Source of the DNA: Pseudomonas putida | Lineage (GTDB): Bacteria > Pseudomonadota > Gammaproteobacteria > Pseudomonadales > Pseudomonadaceae | Direction of reading: 5' to 3' | DNA length: 64,000 nt | Assembly (NCBI RefSeq): GCF_016406145.1 | Contig: NZ_CP066306.1 | Coordinates: 4,402,001-4,466,000 of the forward strand | Shown here: one piece after another, positions 8,338 through 34,638 of the stretch | How positions within the stretch are numbered: position 1 is the stretch's first letter | How the letters are laid out: every line of letters starts with the position of its first letter | Made by a program: the position numbers and the translations under genes | The notes under the pieces: generated by a model | What the model saw: only the letters and a program-made list of their open reading frames with translations | Database searches by the model: none | What the model was told of the DNA's origin: nothing

Positions 8338-9678
8338 ATGAAAATAACCCTGAAACGGTTGGCGTGCCTGGGAGCAAGCTTCACCAGCGCGCTTGCCATG
8401 GCCGATGCGGCTAGCCCGCCAGTGCTTTCACCTGCGATTCCCTTCGACGTCACCGCTACCCCACCCTTCACCCTGGATAACCTGCAACACGATTTCGACG
8501 TGCTGTCGTGGCAGACATTCGTTGCCCTGAACTGGCCCGCCAACGCCGACGGCAGCGCCAACACCTCGGCGAAGATGGGCGCGCCGGGGCAGACGGTTTG
8601 GGAGTCGTGGAAGGAGAGCTACGAGATTTTCCTGCCCCAAGGCCAGAAGCCGGTCGCCTGGAACCAGAAGGCGCCGCTACCCGCCGCCTGCCAAGGCAAG
8701 GGTGACCTGCCCGTCCTGCAACAGATGGGCAAGGTCGCCGGTGTGCTCGACGAATTCATTCAGCCGTTCAAGACCGGCCCACTGGTGGACCAGAACGGCA
8801 CCTACACGCGCAACGCGATCATGGTCAACCAGCCGATGTTCGATGACATCGTCAACAATGGCCTGTACAGCAAGGAGGGCCAGCAAGCATTCCTGAGCAA
8901 GGCCGAGAACCGCATCGCATTCGCCTGCGGGTCGCAGAAGGCCGAGCAGGTCGGCGCGATCATGGTCAAGTCGGCCTGGAAGGTACTCGGCGGCAACGAC
9001 AACCCGCAGGACTTCCACGCCGTCGACGCCTTGGTCTACACCCCCGGCAACGCCGACCCGAACAAGGGCGCGGTGATCCCCGAGTCGTGCAGCGCGCAGA
9101 AGGTCGGGCTGGTCGGTCTGCACATCGTGCACAAGACCCAGGCCGCGCCGCAGTGGGTATGGTCGAGCTTCGAGCACGTGCGCAACGTGCCGGAAAAGAC
9201 CACACCGATGAACGAGCGCAAGGGCCCCTACCTGTTCTACGACGCCCAAGCCAGCGACCGCCCGGTGAACGAGCCGCCAGCGCAGCCGTGGGACCCATCG
9301 AAGAAAGCCACGCCTTCGCAGATCGTGCGGGAAATCCCGCTCACCACCGCGACACACCAGCTCAACGCGCAGTGGCAAAGCGCGCTCAAGGGCACTGTGT
9401 GGGCCAACTACCAGTTGATCAGCACCCAGTGGCCGACCGACCCCGCCGATGACTGCAAAGTACCGTCGCCAACCAATCCGCTGGGCACGCCTGCGCCGAA
9501 CTTCCTGGCCAACGCCACGCTGGAAACCTACAACCAGGGCACTACGCCGCAGGCTTCGTCCAGTTGCATGGAGTGCCACAACAACGCGACCACCCGCGTG
9601 ACCCAGTCACCGCGCACCAGCTTCGCCGATTTCACCTTCCTGCTTGAACGTGCCCAATCCACTGGCGCCAAGGAGTGA
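8338..9678 (+). CDS. Exported c-type cytochrome-like protein (single CxxCH)
   Basis: This 446-residue protein has a Sec-type signal peptide (MKITLKRLACLGASFTSALAMADA, cleavage after about residue 24). It has one heme-c attachment motif, CMECH, at residues 410-414. The rest does not resemble the triheme cytochrome subunits of gluconate or FAD-glucose dehydrogenases. It has its own conserved look, with phrases such as DVLSWQTFVALNWP and EHVRNVP. The gene is first in an operon with a dehydrogenase small subunit and a GMC flavoprotein, so a role as periplasmic electron acceptor is inferred. Exact family unknown to me. The ATG follows GAGGAG. Confidence 0.75.
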   Translation: MKITLKRLACLGASFTSALAMADAASPPVLSPAIPFDVTATPPFTLDNLQHDFDVLSWQTFVALNWPANADGSANTSAKMGAPGQTVWESWKESYEIFLPQGQKPVAWNQKAPLPAACQGKGDLPVLQQMGKVAGVLDEFIQPFKTGPLVDQNGTYTRNAIMVNQPMFDDIVNNGLYSKEGQQAFLSKAENRIAFACGSQKAEQVGAIMVKSAWKVLGGNDNPQDFHAVDALVYTPGNADPNKGAVIPESCSAQKVGLVGLHIVHKTQAAPQWVWSSFEHVRNVPEKTTPMNERKGPYLFYDAQASDRPVNEPPAQPWDPSKKATPSQIVREIPLTTATHQLNAQWQSALKGTVWANYQLISTQWPTDPADDCKVPSPTNPLGTPAPNFLANATLETYNQGTTPQASSSCMECHNNATTRVTQSPRTSFADFTFLLERAQSTGAKE

Positions 9679-9682
9679 TGCC

Positions 9683-10174
9683 ATGAGCGACCCGAACCTG
9701 CAGAACTTCATCGACCTGTCCGCCGCCCTCACTGGCCTGTCAGCAGAGCTGCTGGCGCCTTCGGTAGACCCGATCAACCTGTTGCCGGTGTTCTTCGCCA
9801 CCGCCCAGCAAGGTATGGGCACCGCAGCGTTCAGCAACCTGCTGGAGCTGTACGTCAGTATCAAGAGCCAAACCCCAGCGCAAATCGCCAGCGCCGTACT
9901 TGGCAATTCGGACCCGCAGATCGCCCAAGGCGCCCGCTCGATCATGAAGCTGTGGCTGCTCGGCAGTTGGTACCAGCCGTATGACCAAGGCAGCAAGCAC
10001 AAGGGTGACACCAGCGTGGTGTCTGACCAAGCCTACAAGCAAAGCTGGGCGTGGAAGATCGCCCAGTCTCACCCCATGGGCTACAGCCAGTACCACTTCG
10101 GCTACTGGGCCGAGCAGCCACCGACCCTCAAGCAATTCACCGGTGTCGACGCCAAGGAAGGGCAGCAGCCATGA
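9683..10174 (+). CDS. FAD-dependent dehydrogenase small subunit (sorbitol dehydrogenase type)
   Basis: A 163-residue protein matching the small-subunit family of membrane FAD-dependent sorbitol, glucose and gluconate dehydrogenases. It has FIDLSAALTG near the N-terminus, IMKLWLLGSWY in the middle, and HFGYWAEQPP at the C-terminus. Family members usually carry a twin-arginine leader that exports the flavin subunit. None is visible here. The ATG at 9683 sits seven bases after AGGAG, which lies at the end of the cytochrome gene. Its stop overlaps the start of the GMC gene (ATGA), implying coupled synthesis of a complex. Confidence 0.8.
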   Translation: MSDPNLQNFIDLSAALTGLSAELLAPSVDPINLLPVFFATAQQGMGTAAFSNLLELYVSIKSQTPAQIASAVLGNSDPQIAQGARSIMKLWLLGSWYQPYDQGSKHKGDTSVVSDQAYKQSWAWKIAQSHPMGYSQYHFGYWAEQPPTLKQFTGVDAKEGQQP

Positions 10175-12429
10175 GCAACGTACAAACCCAGAATATCGAA
10201 ACTGCCGATGTGATCGTGGTGGGCGCAGGCATGGCCGGCAGCGTCATGGCCTATCAGTTGGGCCTGGCCGGCTTGAAAGTGCTGGTGCTCGAGTCGGGCC
10301 CGGCAATTCCGCCGAACCGCAGCGAGTATCTGGAGCGTTTCTACACCGCCGTGCTCAAGTCGCCCGAGTCGCCATACCCGCCGGAGCAGACCGAGCAGAC
10401 CCCGGCCACCCAGTTCGCTCCGCGCGCGACTATCCAGGATTTGATCACCGCCGGCAGCACCGACCCGAACAAAGTGCAGAAAAGCTACCTGGTACAGAAG
10501 GGGCCGCAGCTGTTCGCCAGCACCTACGAACGGGTAGGCGGCGGCACCATGTGGCACTGGATGGGCACGGCCCTGCGCCTGTTGCCCAACGACTTTCGCA
10601 TGCGCACTGCGTACAACGTCGGGGTCGACTGGCCGATCAGCTACGAAGACCTGCAGACCGCCTACTGCCGCGCCGAGGAGGAGATGGGCGTGTCCGCCGA
10701 TGTCGCCTCGCAGACCTACCTGGGCGTGACCTTCCCGCAGGGGTATGAATACAGCATGCACGGCATCCCGCCTTCGCTGGTAGACCAGGGCTTGAGCAAA
10801 AACGTGACGGGCACGGTGTACCAGAGTCCGGAGAAGGCGCCCGACGGCAAGCCGTACCCAGGTGTCACCCTCAACGTCCGGCAGACCCCGGCAGGGCGCA
10901 ACTCGCAGAGCGACAACGGCCGACGGGTGTGCGCTGGAAACACCAGCTGCACGCCGATCTGCCCCATCCAGGCCAAGTACGACGCCACCGTCACAATGGC
11001 CAAGGCACTGGATACCGGCAACGTGCGCATCCTCTACCAGACCGTGGCGAGCCAGGTGCAGGTCGATGCCCATGGGGTCACGGGTATCGATTTCATCCAG
11101 TACCAGAACAATGGCACGCGCCAGAACGGCACGGCCCAGGGCAAGCGCTACGTGATCGCCGCCCATGCTATCGAAACGCCAAAGCTGTTACTCAACTCCA
11201 TCGGCCCCAACAGCCCTAAAGGGGTCGCCAACAGCAGCGGCCAGGTGGGCCAGGCGCTGGCTGACCACCCGGTGTACCTGGCCTGGGGCCTGATGCCCGA
11301 AGGCAAGCCGCTGTTCCCGTTCCGCGGGCCGTTGTCCACCTCGGGGATCGAGGACATGCGCGATGGCCCGTTCCGCAGCCAGCGCGCCGCCTGGCGTATC
11401 GAGATCGGCAACGAGGGTTGGAACTGGTCGGTAAACGACCCCTACGCCTCTGTCTGCGATTTCATCGACGGCACCAACAACGGCGGCGCTAACCCCAACA
11501 AGCTGGCGTTGTCCGGCCAGGCGCTGGTGCAGCAGCTCAACAGCGTGCTGACCCGCCAGTTCCGTCTGGGCTTCTTGATCGAGCAGGTGGAGAAAGACCC
11601 TGACCATGCGCTGTGCCGGGTGGAAAGGAGCACGGAGTTCACCGATGGTCTGGGCCTGCCCCGGCCGCAGATCACCTACGAACTGTCCGACTACACCAAG
11701 GAGGGCTTCAAGCAAGCGCGCCTGGCCGCCACGCATATCATCACCGAGCTGATGGGCGCCACCGAGCTGACCAACCTGAACCCTAAACTCGAGCCCGGCT
11801 CGCAAACGGTGTTCGAGTACGACGGCCATAACTACGCGTTCTTCGGCGCTGGCCACCTGATGGGCACCTACCGCATGGGCTCGGACCGCACCAAGTCGGT
11901 GGTGGACAAGGACCAGCGCAGTTGGGACCACCCCAACCTGTTCCTGGTCGGCGACGGCGTGTTCCCCACCACCGGCACCGCCAACCCGACCTTGACCATT
12001 ACCGCGCTGACCTTCCAGGCCGCCGACGTGGTGGCCAGCGACCTGCTCAAGCGCACGGTGCAGGTGCAGGCCAACCAGGCATGGCAGGGCACGGGCATGC
12101 AGGTCAATGGGCAGAGCTGGCAGTTGGCGGTGTGTACAGGCGGGCAGTGGACGGCCAACCCGGCCACCGGCATGGTTGGCGCACAGGGCAACCCAGCGTT
12201 GATCGCCAAGCCGGGCTACACCCTGCCGGGGCAGAACGAAGGGGCGTTGATCGGGCGCATCGGCAGCAACGGCGTGCCGTTCCTGGTGGGTGATCAGGAG
12301 CAATTGCCGCGTGGCCAGCAGGGTGAGTTGCAGCTGTGCATCAATGACGACCTGGCTGGGCGCTATGGGGCTGGCCTGAGCGATAACCTGGGCAGCCTGT
12401 CGGTGGAGGTGCGTTTCGGGGCGGTGTAG
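10171..12429 (+). CDS. GMC oxidoreductase with [Fe-S] cysteine cluster and C-terminal LecA-like lectin domain
   Basis: A 752-residue protein. An N-terminal FAD-binding Rossmann motif (GAGMAG, residues 18-23) opens a GMC fold of the FAD-glucose/sorbitol/gluconate dehydrogenase kind. Cysteines 254, 260 and 264 in CAGNTSCTPICPIQ match the iron-sulphur cluster region of those enzymes. Candidate catalytic residues are His562 (GAGHLMGTYRMG) and Asn605 (TANPTLT), 43 residues apart as is usual for GMC enzymes. The GMC fold ends near residue 628. Residues about 630-752 resemble PA-IL/LecA-type galactose-binding domains: QAWQGTG, then GALIGRIGSNGVPFLVG, then INDD and DNLGSLSVEV. No signal peptide is visible. 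The start is the ATG overlapping the previous stop. The substrate is unknown; a sugar or polyol is inferred. Confidence 0.82.
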   Translation: MSNVQTQNIETADVIVVGAGMAGSVMAYQLGLAGLKVLVLESGPAIPPNRSEYLERFYTAVLKSPESPYPPEQTEQTPATQFAPRATIQDLITAGSTDPNKVQKSYLVQKGPQLFASTYERVGGGTMWHWMGTALRLLPNDFRMRTAYNVGVDWPISYEDLQTAYCRAEEEMGVSADVASQTYLGVTFPQGYEYSMHGIPPSLVDQGLSKNVTGTVYQSPEKAPDGKPYPGVTLNVRQTPAGRNSQSDNGRRVCAGNTSCTPICPIQAKYDATVTMAKALDTGNVRILYQTVASQVQVDAHGVTGIDFIQYQNNGTRQNGTAQGKRYVIAAHAIETPKLLLNSIGPNSPKGVANSSGQVGQALADHPVYLAWGLMPEGKPLFPFRGPLSTSGIEDMRDGPFRSQRAAWRIEIGNEGWNWSVNDPYASVCDFIDGTNNGGANPNKLALSGQALVQQLNSVLTRQFRLGFLIEQVEKDPDHALCRVERSTEFTDGLGLPRPQITYELSDYTKEGFKQARLAATHIITELMGATELTNLNPKLEPGSQTVFEYDGHNYAFFGAGHLMGTYRMGSDRTKSVVDKDQRSWDHPNLFLVGDGVFPTTGTANPTLTITALTFQAADVVASDLLKRTVQVQANQAWQGTGMQVNGQSWQLAVCTGGQWTANPATGMVGAQGNPALIAKPGYTLPGQNEGALIGRIGSNGVPFLVGDQEQLPRGQQGELQLCINDDLAGRYGAGLSDNLGSLSVEVRFGAV

Positions 12430-12613: not shown

Positions 12614-12650
12614 AAAAAGCCCGCGAACCTGTACAGGTCGCGGGCTTTTT
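12614..12650 (-). terminator. Strong bidirectional terminator downstream of tRNA-Lys
   Basis: AAAAAGCCCGCGA at 12614-12626 pairs with TCGCGGGCTTTTT at 12638-12650, giving a GC-rich stem with T-runs on both strands. It lies downstream of the minus-strand tRNA-Lys and would also stop readthrough from the GMC operon. The rest of 12485-12755 shows no gene. Confidence 0.85.
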
Positions 12651-12755
12651 CATATATACATCACGCTGAAGCGCTACTAAGGTTCGCTCCAGACGGCTGC
12701 AGAACTAGAACTGGCTGTAAAGCCACCCTCTAGTACTCACGAACCGCTGCGAATA

Positions 12756-12831
12756 TGGTGGGTCGTGTAGGATTCGAACCTACGACCAATTGGTTAAAAG
12801 CCAACTGCTCTACCAACTGAGCTAACGACCC
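12756..12831 (-). tRNA. tRNA-Lys (anticodon TTT)
   Basis: The 76-nt reverse-strand sequence folds as a tRNA. The acceptor strand GGGTCGT pairs with ACGACCC. The D-arm is GCTCAGTTGGTAGAGC and the anticodon loop is CTTTTAA. The T-loop is GGTTCGAATCC and CCA is encoded at the 3' end. The anticodon TTT reads lysine codons. Confidence 0.97.
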
Positions 12832-15212: not shown

Positions 15213-15710
15213 TTACTTACGCAGTTCTACGCGGCGGTTCTGAGCCCAGGACTGCTCGTCGTTGCCGGTGGCAACTGGACGCTCTTCGCCGTAGGAGACC
15301 AGTTCCAGCTGAGCAGGGGAAACACCCTGCAGAACCAGGTAGCGCTGAACGGCCTTGGCACGACGCTCGCCCAGAGCCATGTTGTACTCGCGAGTACCGC
15401 GCTCGTCGGTGTTGCCTTCCAGAACAACACGGTTGCCGTTGGACTTCAGGTCCTTGGCGTGAACGTCCAGAGCGCGCATGGCTTCTGGCTTCAGGTCCGA
15501 GCTGTCGTATTCGAAGTAGAAGGTGGTGATTGCGCGCAGGGCGGCTTCTTCGCTCAGGGAACCGTCAACAGCGCCAGTGTTGGCACCGTAGCCAGCGTTA
15601 GGGTCGACAGCGCCTTCGCCAGCGTTGTCACCGCCCTTCGAGGAGCAACCTACAGCTACAGCCATGGCCAGAGCCAGCGCAGCAAATTTACCAAACTTCA
15701 GCATTTCCAT
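15213..15710 (-). CDS. pal: Peptidoglycan-associated lipoprotein Pal (OprL)
   Basis: Pal is the outer-membrane lipoprotein of the Tol-Pal system and binds peptidoglycan. The 165-residue precursor starts MEMLKFGKF and has a lipobox ending VGC at about residue 21. It then carries an OmpA-like domain with [10 protein letters not shown] and [22 protein letters not shown]. The peptidoglycan-binding Asp and Arg are visible in the latter. The ATG at 15710 has AGGAG seven bases upstream; upstream in-frame codons to 15764 lack this. It lies between tolB and cpoB. Confidence 0.97.
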
Positions 15711-15764
15711 CGTGAAACTCCTAATGAAACCCCAGTGTGTTAAGCAAAACGTGTTACGCCGCAA

Positions 15765-17066
15765 TCAGTTCAGGTAAGGGGACCAGGACGGTTCTCTGAC
15801 TTCGCCTTGAGCGGTAGGAAGTGGGAGCCTCACGCGGCCATTAAGCGACACGAGCATCAAGACTCCCCGGCCCTGCTGGCGGGTGGCGTAGATTAGCATG
15901 GTGCCGTTTGGCGCAACAGTGGGAGACTCATCAAGACTTGTTTCCGAGAGAATCTTTACACTTCCTCTCTGCAAGTCTTGTGCCGCCACTTTGAAGTTGG
16001 TGAATCCCTGCTGACGATGGATCATTACCAGCGTCTTTTCGTCCGCCGAAAGTTTCGGGTTGGCGTTGTAGTTACCTACGAACGTCACACGCTCGGCGCT
16101 ACCACCACTGACCGACTGTTTGTAGATCTGCGGCTTGCCGCCACGGTCGGAGGTGAAGTACAGAGTGTTGCCATCCTTGCCCCAGAACGGCTCGGTATTG
16201 ATACCCGGGCCGGCAGTGACACGGCTGATCTGGCGCGAAGCCACGTTCATCACGTAGATGTCCGGGTTGCCGTCCTTGGACAGCACGAACGCCAGGCGCG
16301 AACCATCCGGCGACCAGGCCGGAGCACCATTGAGGCCTTCGAAGTTGGTGACCTGTTCGCGGCGGCCGGTGTCGATGTGCTGGATGAAAATGCGCGGACG
16401 CTTCTGCTCGAACGAGACATAGGCGATACGCTTGCCGTCCGGCGCGAAACGTGGCGACAGGATAGGCTCACGCGACTGCAGCAAGGTCACTGCACGCGCA
16501 CCGTCGTAGTCCGAACGCTGCAGGGTGTAGCGGGTATTGTTGGTCGAGAAGCGCTCGGCGGTCACGTACAGCATGCGAGTGGAAAACGCACCCTTGATGC
16601 CGGTGAGCTTCTCGAACGACTGGTCGGCGATGTAGTGCGACATGTCGCGCAGTTGGTCGACGCTGCCGGCAACGCTGCCGGTCAGCACTTGCTGCTCGGT
16701 GGCGACGTTGAACAGCGCGTACTGCACCTGCAGGCGACCGCCCGACGGCACGATGCTGCCGACCATCACGTACTGGGCGCCCAAGGCTTTCCAGTCACGG
16801 AAGATCACTTCGCTGGCCTGGGTAGGCTGGCTGATCATGTTCTGCCGTGGGATGGGCGAGTAGTAACCGGAGTTGCGCAGGTCATTGCCGATGATATCGG
16901 CCATGTCTTCCGGCAGCACACTGCCACCCTGCAGACCGAACGGCACTACCGCGATGGGCGTGGCCCGATCGCTGCCGCTGGTGACCAGGATGTTCTTTTC
17001 CTCTGCCATGGCCATGCCTGCCACGCAGCACAGCATGACCAGCAGTCCTCGAAGGAGTTTAATCAC
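15765..17066 (-). CDS. tolB: Tol-Pal system protein TolB
   Basis: TolB is a periplasmic beta-propeller that shuttles between Pal and TolA. The 433-residue precursor has a signal peptide ending GMAMA. It has repeated WD-like propeller blades such as [36 protein letters not shown] and [16 protein letters not shown]. The start overlaps the tolA stop by four bases, indicating coupled translation. Confidence 0.97.
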
Positions 17067-18139
17067 AACGCTAGATCCTCAGGTGTAAATGTCATCTTGA
17101 ACGAACGGTACGGATTGAACTCGTTCGGCTTCAAGCCCTGCATTTCGGTCAGACGACCGATGTTCTTCACTGCTGCCACCGCAGAACTGTCGAACGGACC
17201 GTCGCCACTGGAGCGCGACACGCTGACACTGGTGATGGTGCCATCGGGCAGCATGTTGATCTGCAGGACTACCGTCATGCCCTTGCGCGCTGAAGGTGGA
17301 CGCGCCCAGCCTTCGGCCGCGCGCATGCGGATCAGGTCGTCGAAGTCGCCGGCCACCTGGTCACCCTGCTCGTCGGCCAGCGCCTGCTGCCGCTCGGTGG
17401 TATCGGACAACAGCTCGGCCAGGGCCTGGGCTTTCTTGTCTTCTGCCGCCTTGCGGGCCGCCTCCTGTGCCTTTTTCTTCTGGGCATCTGCAGCGGCCTT
17501 TTTCTTGGCCTCTTCAGCTGCCTTCTTCTTCGCGTCCTCGGCCGCCGCCTTCTTCTTGGCGTCCTCGGCTGCTTTCTTCTTGGCCTCCTCAGCTGCCTTT
17601 TTCTTGGCATCCTCGGCGGCTTGTTTCTTGGCCTCTTCGGCCGCCTGCTTCTTGGCCTCTTCCTCAGCCTTTTTCTTGGCGATGTCGGCCTGTTGCTTTT
17701 CAGCGGCCTTCTTCGCCTCGTCGGCCTTTTTGGCTTCGGCGGCTTTCTTGGCCTCGGCGGCCTTGGCAGCGTCTTCTGCCTTCTTCGCCTCGGCGGCTTC
17801 GCGAGCCTCCTCGGCCTTTTGAGCGGCATCGGCTTTCTTTTGTTCCGCAGCCTTTACGGCCTCCTGCTCGACCTTCTTCTGTTCCAGCTGCTCGACTTCG
17901 GTCTGACGCGACGCGGTTTTTTTCGCTTCCCCGGCAATCTTCTGATTGGTCTGGGTGGTCGCCTGACTCTTGGACTTGAGCTGATACAGCGTAGCCTGAA
18001 CGATCGGCTTGGAAGGCGGCAATTCTGGCGTCATGGCAAAACTGACGAACAGCAATGCGAACACAAGCACATGCAGGCCGATGGCCCAGACACTGGGCCA
18101 GAAGTAGCTTTCCGAGGCGGATGGCTCTCGCTGTTGCAT
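17063..18139 (-). CDS. tolA: Tol-Pal system protein TolA
   Basis: TolA spans the periplasm from an N-terminal inner-membrane helix ([19 protein letters not shown]) to a C-terminal globular domain. The 358-residue protein has a central, almost pure Ala/Lys/Glu/Asp helical region, roughly residues 80-230, built from units like AEEAKKKA. Its C-terminal domain carries the TonB/TolA-like [31 protein letters not shown]. Its ATG shares a base with the tolR stop. The repetitive low-complexity DNA generates many spurious frames on both strands. Confidence 0.96.
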
Positions 18140-18591
18140 CAGGGCGCCTCGGTAATCAGGCCAACGTTACCGACACCGGCCTTCTGCAACCCGCCCATGG
18201 CACCCATGACCGCGCCGTAGTCGACAGCCTTGTCGCCACGAATGAAGACCTGGGTCTGCTTGCCCTGGTCGCGACCGGCGGCAATGATCTTGGTCACTGC
18301 ACTGGTCATTTCAGGCAAGGTCATGGCCTTGTCCATTTGCTTGTCGGTGTCGACTTCGCTGCCCAGGTTCCAGTAATAGGTCTTGTCAGCCTTGATGGAG
18401 ATGGTGAGGATCTGGACATTGTTGTCCTGCGGCAAGGCTTCGCTGGAAACCTTGGGCAGGTCGACCTTCACGCCCTGATTGAGCATGGGAGCCGTCACCA
18501 TGAAGATGACCAGCAGCACCAGCATCACGTCGATGTAGGGCACCACGTTCATCTCGGCGACCGGCTTGCGTTTGTGGCGAACTCGGGCCAT
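18139..18591 (-). CDS. tolR: Tol-Pal system protein TolR
   Basis: TolR is an ExbD-family partner of TolQ that converts proton-motive force into movement of TolA. The 150-residue protein starts MARVRHKRKPVAEMNVVPYID. Its single transmembrane helix carries the essential aspartate (VPYIDVMLVLLVIFMV). The ATG at 18591 is chosen because the frame beyond it is non-conserved and overlaps tolQ. The gap to tolQ is 14 bases. Confidence 0.97.
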   Translation of the reverse strand: MARVRHKRKPVAEMNVVPYIDVMLVLLVIFMVTAPMLNQGVKVDLPKVSSEALPQDNNVQILTISIKADKTYYWNLGSEVDTDKQMDKAMTLPEMTSAVTKIIAAGRDQGKQTQVFIRGDKAVDYGAVMGAMGGLQKAGVGNVGLITEAP

Positions 18592-18605
18592 GGGTTTGTA
18601 CCTGA

Positions 18606-19301
18606 TTACTCTTCGCTGGTGTGCACTTTGCGGTGCAGGATCGCCTGGAACTCGTCGGCGAAGGTGTAGTAACGACCGATCAGCACTTCGCTGCGTGCGG
18701 CGAAACGGTTGTAGGCGATAACCGCGGGGATTGCCGCGAACAGGCCGATGGCGGTCGCAATCAGCGCTTCGGCGATACCCGGAGCCACGGTGGCCAGGGT
18801 CGCCTGCTGGGCGCTGGCCAGGCCGCGGAAGGAGTTCATGATGCCCCACACGGTACCGAACAGGCCGATGTACGGGCTGGTCGAACCAACGGTGGCGAGG
18901 AACGGCAGGCTCTGCTCGAGTTTTTCTTCCTCACGCGAGATGGCTACGCGCATGGCCCGGCCTACGCCTTCCATGACCGCGTCGGGGTCCACACCCGGCT
19001 GCTGGCGCAGACGCGAGAACTCCTTGAAGCCGGCCCGGAAGACCTGCTCCACGCCCGAATCCGGGTCCGGGTTGCTGCCTGCCTGACGGTACAGCTTGGA
19101 CAGGTCGATACCCGACCAGAAGCGTTCCTCGAAGGCATCCAGCGCACGACGACCGGCGCGCAGCATGGTGCTGCGCTGGAAGATCATGATCCATGAGGTG
19201 ACCGAGGCGGCCACCAGGGTCAGCATTACCAGCTGTACCACCACGCTGGCATTGCTGACCAGACTCCACATGGAGGTATGGTCGACGACGTTAGCTTCCA
19301 C
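18606..19301 (-). CDS. tolQ: Tol-Pal system protein TolQ
   Basis: TolQ is an ExbB/MotA-type proton channel subunit. The 231-residue protein has three membrane helices and the conserved pore segment GSTSPYIGLFGTVWGIMNSF. EALIATAIGLFAAIPAVIAYN is in the last helix. It is the first of the tol genes and lies two bases after ybgC. Confidence 0.97.
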   Translation of the reverse strand: MEANVVDHTSMWSLVSNASVVVQLVMLTLVAASVTSWIMIFQRSTMLRAGRRALDAFEERFWSGIDLSKLYRQAGSNPDPDSGVEQVFRAGFKEFSRLRQQPGVDPDAVMEGVGRAMRVAISREEEKLEQSLPFLATVGSTSPYIGLFGTVWGIMNSFRGLASAQQATLATVAPGIAEALIATAIGLFAAIPAVIAYNRFAARSEVLIGRYYTFADEFQAILHRKVHTSEE

Positions 19302-19303
19302 GC

Positions 19304-19756
19304 TTATTCTCCTGCATTCGATTGAGTACCCGAGCCGTCCGCCACAAAGGCGTCGCGCAGCTTGGGGGGTATGGCTCGGGGTTTGAAAGTGTCGGCGCGC
19401 ACGGCCGCCACCAGGAACTGCCCTTCGCAGAGCAGCGTTTCATCCTTTTCCCGCCAGACCTGCTGCACGAAACGCAGGCTGGCGCGATTGAGTTCAAGTA
19501 CTTGCGCGGTCACCCGAAGTTCGTCGTCCAGGCGCGCCGGCGCGTGATAACGCGCTTCGCTTGAGTGGACCACGAACAACAGGTTCTCCCCGGCCAGTTG
19601 CTGCTGGGAAAACCCCAGGTGCCGCAGGCGCTCGGTCCGCGCGCGCTCCATGAATTTCAGGTAGTTGACGTAATACACCACGCCACCGGCATCGGTATCT
19701 TCGTAATAGACGCGACAACGGTGTGCGAAAGGTTCCAGGCCATTTTGCGCGCGCAT
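19304..19756 (-). CDS. ybgC: Acyl-CoA thioesterase YbgC
   Basis: A hot-dog fold thioesterase of the Tol-Pal cluster. The 150-residue protein contains the 4-hydroxybenzoyl-CoA-type motif [17 protein letters not shown], with the active-site Asp, followed by ERARTERLR. Homologues hydrolyse short-chain acyl-CoA or act on phospholipid-related acyl carriers. It is the first gene of the tol unit, 125 bases after ruvB. Confidence 0.94.
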
Positions 19757-19881
19757 ACTCTAGTGCTTACTCCTCAGCTTGCCAATCCGCTGCGGCAACT
19801 GTTTTTTCTTCATTAATGTCGTATTGCCAGCGCACCTGAGGCATGCCAGCGGTAGGACCACGAAAAGCGGGTTTCGATCTG

Positions 19882-20928
19882 TCATTCATCGCCTGCTTCG
19901 GAAAAATCTGCCCCCTCACCCAGGCGCCCGGGAACATTCAGGCCAAAGTGCAGGTAGGCGTGCCGAGTGACCACACGACCACGGGGCGTACGCATGATAT
20001 AGCCCTGCTGAATCAGGTAGGGTTCGAGCACATCCTCGATGGTATGACGCTCCTCGCTGATCGCTGCCGCCAGGTTATCCACCCCCACCGGGCCACCATC
20101 GAACTTCTCGATCATGGTCAGCAGCAGACGGCGGTCGGAATGGTCGAAACCACGCTCATCTACGTCCAGCAGGTTGAGCGCCAAATCGGCTACTGCCTTG
20201 GTGATCTGCCCTTTGCCGCGCACCTCGGCGTAGTCACGCACGCGGCGCAGCAAGCGGTTGGCAATACGCGGCGTGCCGCGGGCACGGCGGGCGATTTCGT
20301 AAGCCCCCTGGTCCTCGATGACCAGCCCCAGAATATTGGCCGACCGGCTGACGATGGTCGCCAGGTCCTTGTCGCTGTAGAACTCAAGTCGCTGGACGAT
20401 ACCGAAGCGGTCGCGCAGCGGGTTTGTGAGCATACCGGCGCGGGTTGTGGCCCCCACCAAGGTGAAGGGCGGCAAGTCGAGTTTGATCGAGCGGGCAGCC
20501 GGGCCTTCGCCGATCATGATATCGAGCTGGAAGTCCTCCATGGCCGGGTACAGCACCTCCTCGACAACCGGTGATAACCGGTGAATCTCGTCTATGAACA
20601 GGACGTCATGCGGTTCGAGGTTGGTCAGCATGGCTGCCAGGTCGCCCGGGCGCTCGAGAATCGGCCCCGAGGTACTTTTGACCGATACGCCCATTTCCTG
20701 GGCGATGATATTGGCCAGGGTGGTTTTACCCAACCCTGGCGGGCCGAAGATTAGCGTATGGTCGAGCGATTCGTTGCGACCGCGGGCAGCCTGGATGAAC
20801 AGCGCCATCTGCTCGCGCACCACCGGCTGGCCGATGTATTCGTCCAGGCGCAGCGGGCGGATGGCACGGTCCTGGACTTCTTCGCGGTCGCGGCCACTGG
20901 CGGCAATCAGGCGGTCGGCTTCGATCAC
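19882..20928 (-). CDS. ruvB: Holliday junction branch-migration ATPase RuvB
   Basis: RuvB is the hexameric AAA+ motor of the RuvAB branch-migration complex. The 348-residue protein has Walker [13 protein letters not shown] and Walker [11 protein letters not shown]. It also has the sensor region [19 protein letters not shown] and the arginine-finger area. The ATG overlaps the ruvA stop by four bases. Confidence 0.98.
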
Positions 20929-34136: not shown

Positions 34137-34213
<77 letters not shown>

Positions 34214-34221
34214 GATTCGAG

Positions 34222-34252
34222 AAAAGGCCACTGTTAACGCAGTGGCCTTTTT
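34222..34252 (+). terminator. Terminator of initiator tRNA copy 1
   Basis: AAAAGGCCACTG pairs with CAGTGGCCTTTT and is followed by T residues. Confidence 0.88.
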
Positions 34253-34308
34253 CTTTTGCCTAAAAAATAATCAGCGATTTAAAACTCAATAAAATCAATA
34301 AGTAACGC

Positions 34309-34336
34309 TTGACACTCCGCGCTTTCACTGTAGAAT
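34309..34336 (+). promoter_or_regulatory. Promoter of second initiator tRNA gene
   Basis: TTGACA at 34309-34314 and TAGAAT at 34331-34336 with a 16-base spacer. Confidence 0.8.
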
Positions 34337-34349
34337 TCGTTTCCACAGG

Positions 34350-34426
<77 letters not shown>

Positions 34427-34434
34427 GATTCGAG

Positions 34435-34465
34435 AAAAGGCCACTGTTAACGCAGTGGCCTTTTT
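34435..34465 (+). terminator. Terminator of initiator tRNA copy 2
   Basis: Same hairpin as copy 1 (AAAAGGCCACTG with CAGTGGCCTTTT). Confidence 0.88.
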
Positions 34466-34521
34466 CTTTTGCCCTCGAAAAGCAGGCAACGCGTTAATTA
34501 CTGGTCAATCAAAAGTAATGC

Positions 34522-34549
34522 TTGACCACCCTCTTCAAAGCTGTAGAAT
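34522..34549 (+). promoter_or_regulatory. Promoter of third initiator tRNA gene
   Basis: TTGACC at 34522-34527 and TAGAAT at 34544-34549, 16-base spacer. Confidence 0.78.
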
Positions 34550-34561
34550 GCGCACCTCTGA

Positions 34562-34638
<77 letters not shown>

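Follow-up and report, generated by a model that had tools for sequence, protein, structure and literature searches.

The closest described relatives of the system reported here are the three-subunit dehydrogenases, namely glucose dehydrogenase (GDH), fructose dehydrogenase (FDH), gluconate dehydrogenase (GADH) and sorbitol dehydrogenase (SLDH), which have a small subunit with a twin-arginine signal and a cytochrome with three CxxCH motifs. Here, we analyzed a window of 64,000 nt of Pseudomonas putida (GCF_016406145.1, NZ_CP066306.1 positions 4,402,001-4,466,000; coordinates are window positions), in which three genes, termed genes 1–3, encode a heme protein, a small subunit, and a flavoprotein. 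Like the glucose dehydrogenase BcGDH and FDH, this trio has a GMC catalytic subunit with 3Fe-4S cysteines, an FAD-linked His and a His/Asn pair, together with genes for a small subunit and a cytochrome. In contrast to BcGDH and FDH, the catalytic subunit carries a C-terminal LecA-like domain, the small subunit has no twin-arginine motif, and the place of the multi-heme subunit with three CxxCH is taken by an unrelated, larger protein with a single heme. Cellobiose dehydrogenases with a carbohydrate-binding module likewise unite a GMC flavin domain, a heme partner, and a sugar-binding module in one system, but among solved structures gene 3 gets only a short GMC match to cellobiose dehydrogenase. 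The genes are coupled, as the original prediction had claimed: the three open reading frames were found where it had placed them, with 4 bases between genes 1 and 2 and an ATGA overlap between genes 2 and 3. We give roughly even chances to the reading that the trio is a variant FAD/3Fe-4S sugar (or polyol) dehydrogenase complex, which would pass electrons to the gene 1 protein and be held at a glycan by its LecA-like tail. Open-licence papers were searched for GMC with a LecA or lectin domain, for PA-IL with a fusion or oxidoreductase, and for P460 with a GMC protein or flavoprotein; judged by title, start of the abstract, and term counts, none of the matches listed describes this system. As had been supposed, the combination looks undescribed.

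For gene 3, GMC_oxred_N and GMC_oxred_C both scored above the Pfam cut-off, and the nearest solved structures were the glucose dehydrogenase 6a2u (E 8e-81) and the large subunit of fructose dehydrogenase (E 1.5e-64). In the alignment to 6a2u, the three cysteines C254, C260, and C264 correspond to residues 212, 218, and 222 of the chain, which are the 3Fe-4S ligands of BcGDH (Cys212/218/222), and H129 falls on residue 105, the FAD-linked His, both as given in excerpts from PMC6719666. H562 and N605, which fall on residues 476 and 519, are taken as the His/Asn pair mentioned for BcGDH in the same excerpts. These results bear out the earlier assignment of a GMC flavoprotein with Fe-S cysteines.

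The tail of gene 3 had been described as LecA-like. No Pfam match was obtained for it at E<=1, including no score for PA-IL (PF07828), and its relation to LecA was seen neither by phmmer against the Protein Data Bank (PDB) nor by a profile of the Pseudomonas domains alone. The best row with the latter profile, a pseudouridine glycosidase (E 0.009), covered only part of the domain and was taken as chance. With a wider domain profile, LecA ranked first (E 0.009) over nearly the full length, and the predicted model of the tail has the LecA fold. Thus, a check proposed earlier for residues 630-752 favored LecA in the predicted fold but gave no PF07828 match; among the relatives, PF07828 was matched by 1 of 11 at E 0.074, and L062 reached 14.1 bits versus a cut-off of 22.5. 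In alignment A2, which comprises the window and 37 of the 72 loci described below, D727, D738, and N739 are invariant in all 38 rows, indicating that the putative Ca2+ site is kept. N739 matches Asn108 of LecA, which presumably acts at the calcium site. EclA has ligands matching the LecA Ca2+ residues, according to excerpts from its description. The tail differs from LecA, PllA, and the N-terminal domain of EclA in being fused to an enzyme and in having a loop between the calcium residues that is longer by 4. The tail probably binds Ca2+ and a glycan, and such a lectin-like tail may anchor the enzyme. From the 12 representatives of alignment A1, P0005 was dropped because its end looked out of frame.

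Gene 1 had been predicted to encode an exported single-heme cytochrome. It contains one CxxCH, at residues 410-414 and 32 residues from the C-terminus, and its N-terminus is of the Sec type by eye and hydropathy, with a lipobox-like sequence seen by eye in three relatives. To this extent the prediction held, but that of an ordinary small mono-heme cytochrome c did not, because the C-terminal CxxCH, the absence of any Pfam match, and the different predicted fold argue against a class I cytochrome. A tri-heme subunit was rejected as well, since there is only one CxxCH. Gene 1 resembles an enlarged version of the P460/c'-beta-type heme proteins rather than the usual cytochrome partner: its predicted fold appears P460/c'-beta-like, and the C-terminal CxxCH is followed by a D-aromatic motif, as in most P460 rows (alignment A4, 17 of 20 P460 matches; L116, L117, and L126 were left out). 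It differs from the cytochromes P460 and c'-beta in its length of 446 aa, versus 135-161 for the PDB chains, in its large insertions, and in a sequence match below cut-off, PF16694 having no match in the window and only weak ones in 7 of 37 relatives (best E 0.013, below cut-off). A Foldseek search with the gene 1 model returned nothing below E 0.32, which does not show a new fold.

In hhalign comparisons with P460, gene 1 at full length aligned at the CxxCH only, whereas after removal of the insertions GAIMVK also aligned (E 1.1e-4, probability 57), a weak match in that its score was equalled or exceeded in 2 of 100 column shuffles. Alignment A3 comprises the window, 6 Bacteroidota loci, and 30 of the 120 proteins listed. 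G206 and K211 of this motif are invariant in all 37 of its rows, among them relatives with 27-30% identity, and have the same spacing as Gly73 and Lys78 of P460.

Gene 2, which had been called a small subunit of the sorbitol/glucose-dehydrogenase type, does match FAD-SLDH, but at 19.8 bits and thus below the cut-off of 24.2; 5 of the 9 relatives scanned match this family, with a best E of 6.8e-7. Alignment A5 comprises 9 small subunits. The gene 2 profile found no relative in the PDB, returning only an antibody chain (E 1.4). The FAD-SLDH alignment to gene 2 begins at position 33 or 26, depending on the search, and the part of the profile absent from gene 2 would correspond to the signal.

In the proposed mechanism, gene 3 would oxidize a sugar or alcohol at its FAD and pass the electrons to the 3Fe-4S cluster, the face of which would be shielded by the small subunit encoded by gene 2. 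The exported c-type heme protein of gene 1, presumably of P460/c'-beta-like fold, would then take the electrons in place of a multi-heme cytochrome, while the Ca2+-binding tail would hold the enzyme at a cell-surface glycan, an exopolysaccharide, or the substrate glycan. The redox half of this mechanism is proposed by homology; we infer the electron path, the substrate class, the glycan binding, and the site of action.

The tentatively P460-like predicted fold and the invariant G206/K211 pair would also suit a gene 1 product that, instead of accepting electrons, serves as a second enzyme or gas-binding heme protein, either P460-like with a heme-lysine crosslink or c'-beta-like. Its substrate would be a product or by-product of the dehydrogenase, for example peroxide, NO, or an N-hydroxy compound. 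Consistent with this, gene 1 relatives lie not only beside GMC genes but also beside a lytic polysaccharide monooxygenase (LPMO) gene, a GH31 gene, and a gene for a Bacteroidota protein. However, the heme-lysine crosslink is putative and its motif match weak, and the three-gene coupling is kept with a dehydrogenase whose usual third subunit is a cytochrome. We regard this explanation as unlikely.

Several observations weigh against the sugar dehydrogenase complex as proposed, most of them concerning export. An RR pair occurs in the first 30 residues of none of 54 small subunits and none of 54 flavoproteins, counted from the start Met nearest the window's, and a twin-arginine signal on genes 2 and 3 was therefore rejected. 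A wider scan with 25 upstream residues did show RR in some rows (such as L038 and L027), located ahead of the start Met in stretches that are taken as lying upstream of the start. By comparison, in the gluconate-dehydrogenase-type trio of the same genome, used as a control, the small subunit bears both RRDFLRK and a hydrophobic stretch, and an open reading frame with three CxxCH overlaps the end of the flavoprotein frame. In all 54 gene 3 homologues the 12-residue hydropathy mean reaches 1.6, the level of the controls, but in 52 of them the stretch lies at the nucleotide-binding motif. By motif and hydropathy, genes 2 and 3 have no recognisable export signal beside an exported gene 1, which is the main difficulty for an anchored extracellular enzyme. 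In addition, the position of LecA His50, a galactose contact, is Leu in the window's domain and His in only 10 of the 38 rows, so that the earlier term "galactose lectin" goes too far, although the calcium residues are kept.

These observations could be explained if genes 2 and 3 were cytoplasmic, the LecA-like tail served in oligomerisation or stability, and gene 1 worked separately outside. In agreement, 18 tail-bearing proteins of other families have no strong hydrophobic N-terminus, those of Photorhabdus being mildly hydrophobic. The Bacteroidota proteins differ from one another in the same way as the window's: ten tail-bearing proteins reach a hydropathy of no more than 0.73, whereas six gene 1 relatives reach at least 2.6. 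A cytoplasmic enzyme is nevertheless doubtful, as the exported cytochrome gene is coupled in two unrelated systems, the putative calcium-site residues are invariant, and a mildly hydrophobic N-terminal stretch (at least 1.6) is present in 13 of the 54 small subunits, which makes a weak Sec-like signal compatible with hydropathy. The characterised relative BcGDH is predicted, in excerpts from PMC6719666, to be secreted into the periplasm together with its small subunit.

Quite improbable, in our view, is an envelope redox system in which an oxidoreductase without a recognisable export signal would be tagged by the LecA-like tail for unconventional export or for retention at the surface. Its dedicated acceptor or second catalyst would be the exported P460-like heme protein, which might contain a heme-lysine crosslink, and the system would have been assembled at least twice with unrelated catalytic parts (the GMC protein in Pseudomonas; a protein without Pfam match in Bacteroidota and one gammaproteobacterium).

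A survey of GMC-lectin fusions and their neighbors, as the original prediction had proposed, was made with the domain profile over named genomes and yielded 72 loci. Pseudomonas-type loci make up 52 of these, 51 from Pseudomonas records and 1 from a gammaproteobacterial metagenome-assembled genome (MAG), and genes 1, 2, and the fused gene 3 follow in this order at 51 of the 52, with gene 1 starting in another frame in L013; at L049, the domain is present and the trio absent. The other 20 loci comprise 12 from Bacteroidota, 4 from Photorhabdus, 3 with phosphatidylserine-decarboxylase-like proteins, and 1 with a GH72-like protein. The Bacteroidota-type protein has a core of about 570 residues before the LecA-like tail, with the gene 1 relative next. 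Tail-bearing loci of this type are L058, L059, L060, L061, L062, L065, L066, L069, L071, and L076, plus L097:4483-6573. A gene 1 relative (25-29% identity) follows in 10 of the 12 Bacteroidota loci; as for the remaining two, the sequence of L068 ends 435 bases past the open reading frame, and about 6 kb of L073 contain no relative of gene 1. No Pfam match was found for the proteins of L058 and L059, and that of L062 gave only a weak PA-IL match at the tail, with no family for the core; the L058 core has no PDB relative.

Phosphatidylserine-decarboxylase-like proteins ending in a LecA-like domain were seen at L074:637-2442 (gammaproteobacterial MAG), L075:4573-6372 (Xenococcus), and L077:4585-6369 (Paracoccus MAG), and a GH72-like, glucanosyltransferase-type protein with the same ending at L063:4207-6369 (Opitutia MAG).

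Within the genus, the full fusion was found in 46 of 398 genomes, the window's included. G447 carries the trio in two copies, with gene 3 stopping right after the GMC domain, and G413 (L106) has a degraded copy. A class scan with the gene 1 profile matched 8 of 369 genomes, its own included; of these, L094, L095, and L096 carry the trio without the tail, and L097 has the tail-bearing Bacteroidota-type protein beside a gene 1 relative. The LecA-like domain is rare, since a search of 398 genomes across the phylum matched only its own genome. A tree built from 57 GMC cores places the tail-bearing proteins in one clade (95/99), inside which the tail-less G447 copy is nested (100/99); the outgroups sit on long branches, and the program issued a warning about joins among these. 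The simplest reading of this tree would be one gain and one loss of the tail.

At L098:7646-11029, an LPMO_10-CBM2 gene is immediately followed by a relative of gene 1, with further distant relatives at 15363-19900. This arrangement may point to a connection between the heme family and the oxidative attack on polysaccharides. At L099:6250-10805, a GH31 glycosidase gene follows a gene 1 relative.

The genomic site was compared in 11 of 12 other genomes of the genus (not G372), over about 5-7.8 kb beyond the tRNA. The claim of conserved flanks was right on one side only: tRNA-Lys and queC lie together in all 11 relatives, accompanied by queE in 10 (the remaining stretch stops short of it), whereas CDF is absent from all 11 stretches compared, as is the trio. 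The window's neighbors were seen around only L008 of the 72 loci, with flanks mostly about 2.2 kb 5' of gene 1 and 6 kb 3', less in some, and several flanking families are common to only L014 and L017 among the 14 nearest loci (L007-L020). The trio is accessory, as had been suspected, and has moved, and CDF is no fixed neighbor.

The trio joins an enzyme class used in biosensors to a fold described for lectins, as far as excerpts from the literature tell, in mostly environmental pseudomonads. A few plant pathogens are among the species listed. The trio makes testable the idea of an iron-sulfur flavoprotein without a recognisable export signal working with a heme partner that is exported. It also suggests what a large cytochrome family might do (1689 matches, with no Pfam assignment among the 120 members listed), and presents the LecA-like fold as a mobile module attached to enzymes.

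Table. Positions of the trio, its motifs and domains, and neighboring features in the window
Feature	Position	Strand	Basis
Gene 1, heme protein, 446 aa	8338..9678	+	N-terminus judged Sec-type by eye and hydropathy; predicted fold tentatively P460/c'-beta-like
GAIMVK, G206 to K211 of gene 1; proposed counterpart of the cytochrome P460 Gly73/Lys78 heme-crosslink motif	8953..8970	+	Weak alignment
CMECH heme-binding motif, C410/C413/H414, near the gene 1 C-terminus	9565..9579	+	
Gene 2, small subunit of FAD-SLDH/hitch-hiker type without twin-arginine motif, 163 aa	9683..10174	+	Profile match
Gene 3, entire, 752 aa	10171..12429	+	
GMC flavoprotein core (gene 3 residues 1-628) with the FAD-His H129 and the His/Asn pair H562/N605	10171..12054	+	Alignment to 6a2u
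C254/C260/C264 of gene 3, predicted 3Fe-4S ligands	10930..10962	+	Alignment to BcGDH Cys212/218/222
Gene 3 residues 629-752, LecA (PA-IL)-like domain	12055..12426	+	Wider profile and predicted fold
D727/D738/N739 of gene 3, putative Ca2+ ligands, at LecA Asp100/Asn107/Asn108	12349..12387	+	Alignment; invariant in the 38 rows of A2
Terminator-like stem and T run 3' of gene 3	12628..12654	+	Consensus match only
tRNA-Lys, with queC the conserved edge of the site	12756..12831	-	Comparison with relatives

Elsewhere in the window, three tRNA-Met genes lie in tandem at 34137-34638.
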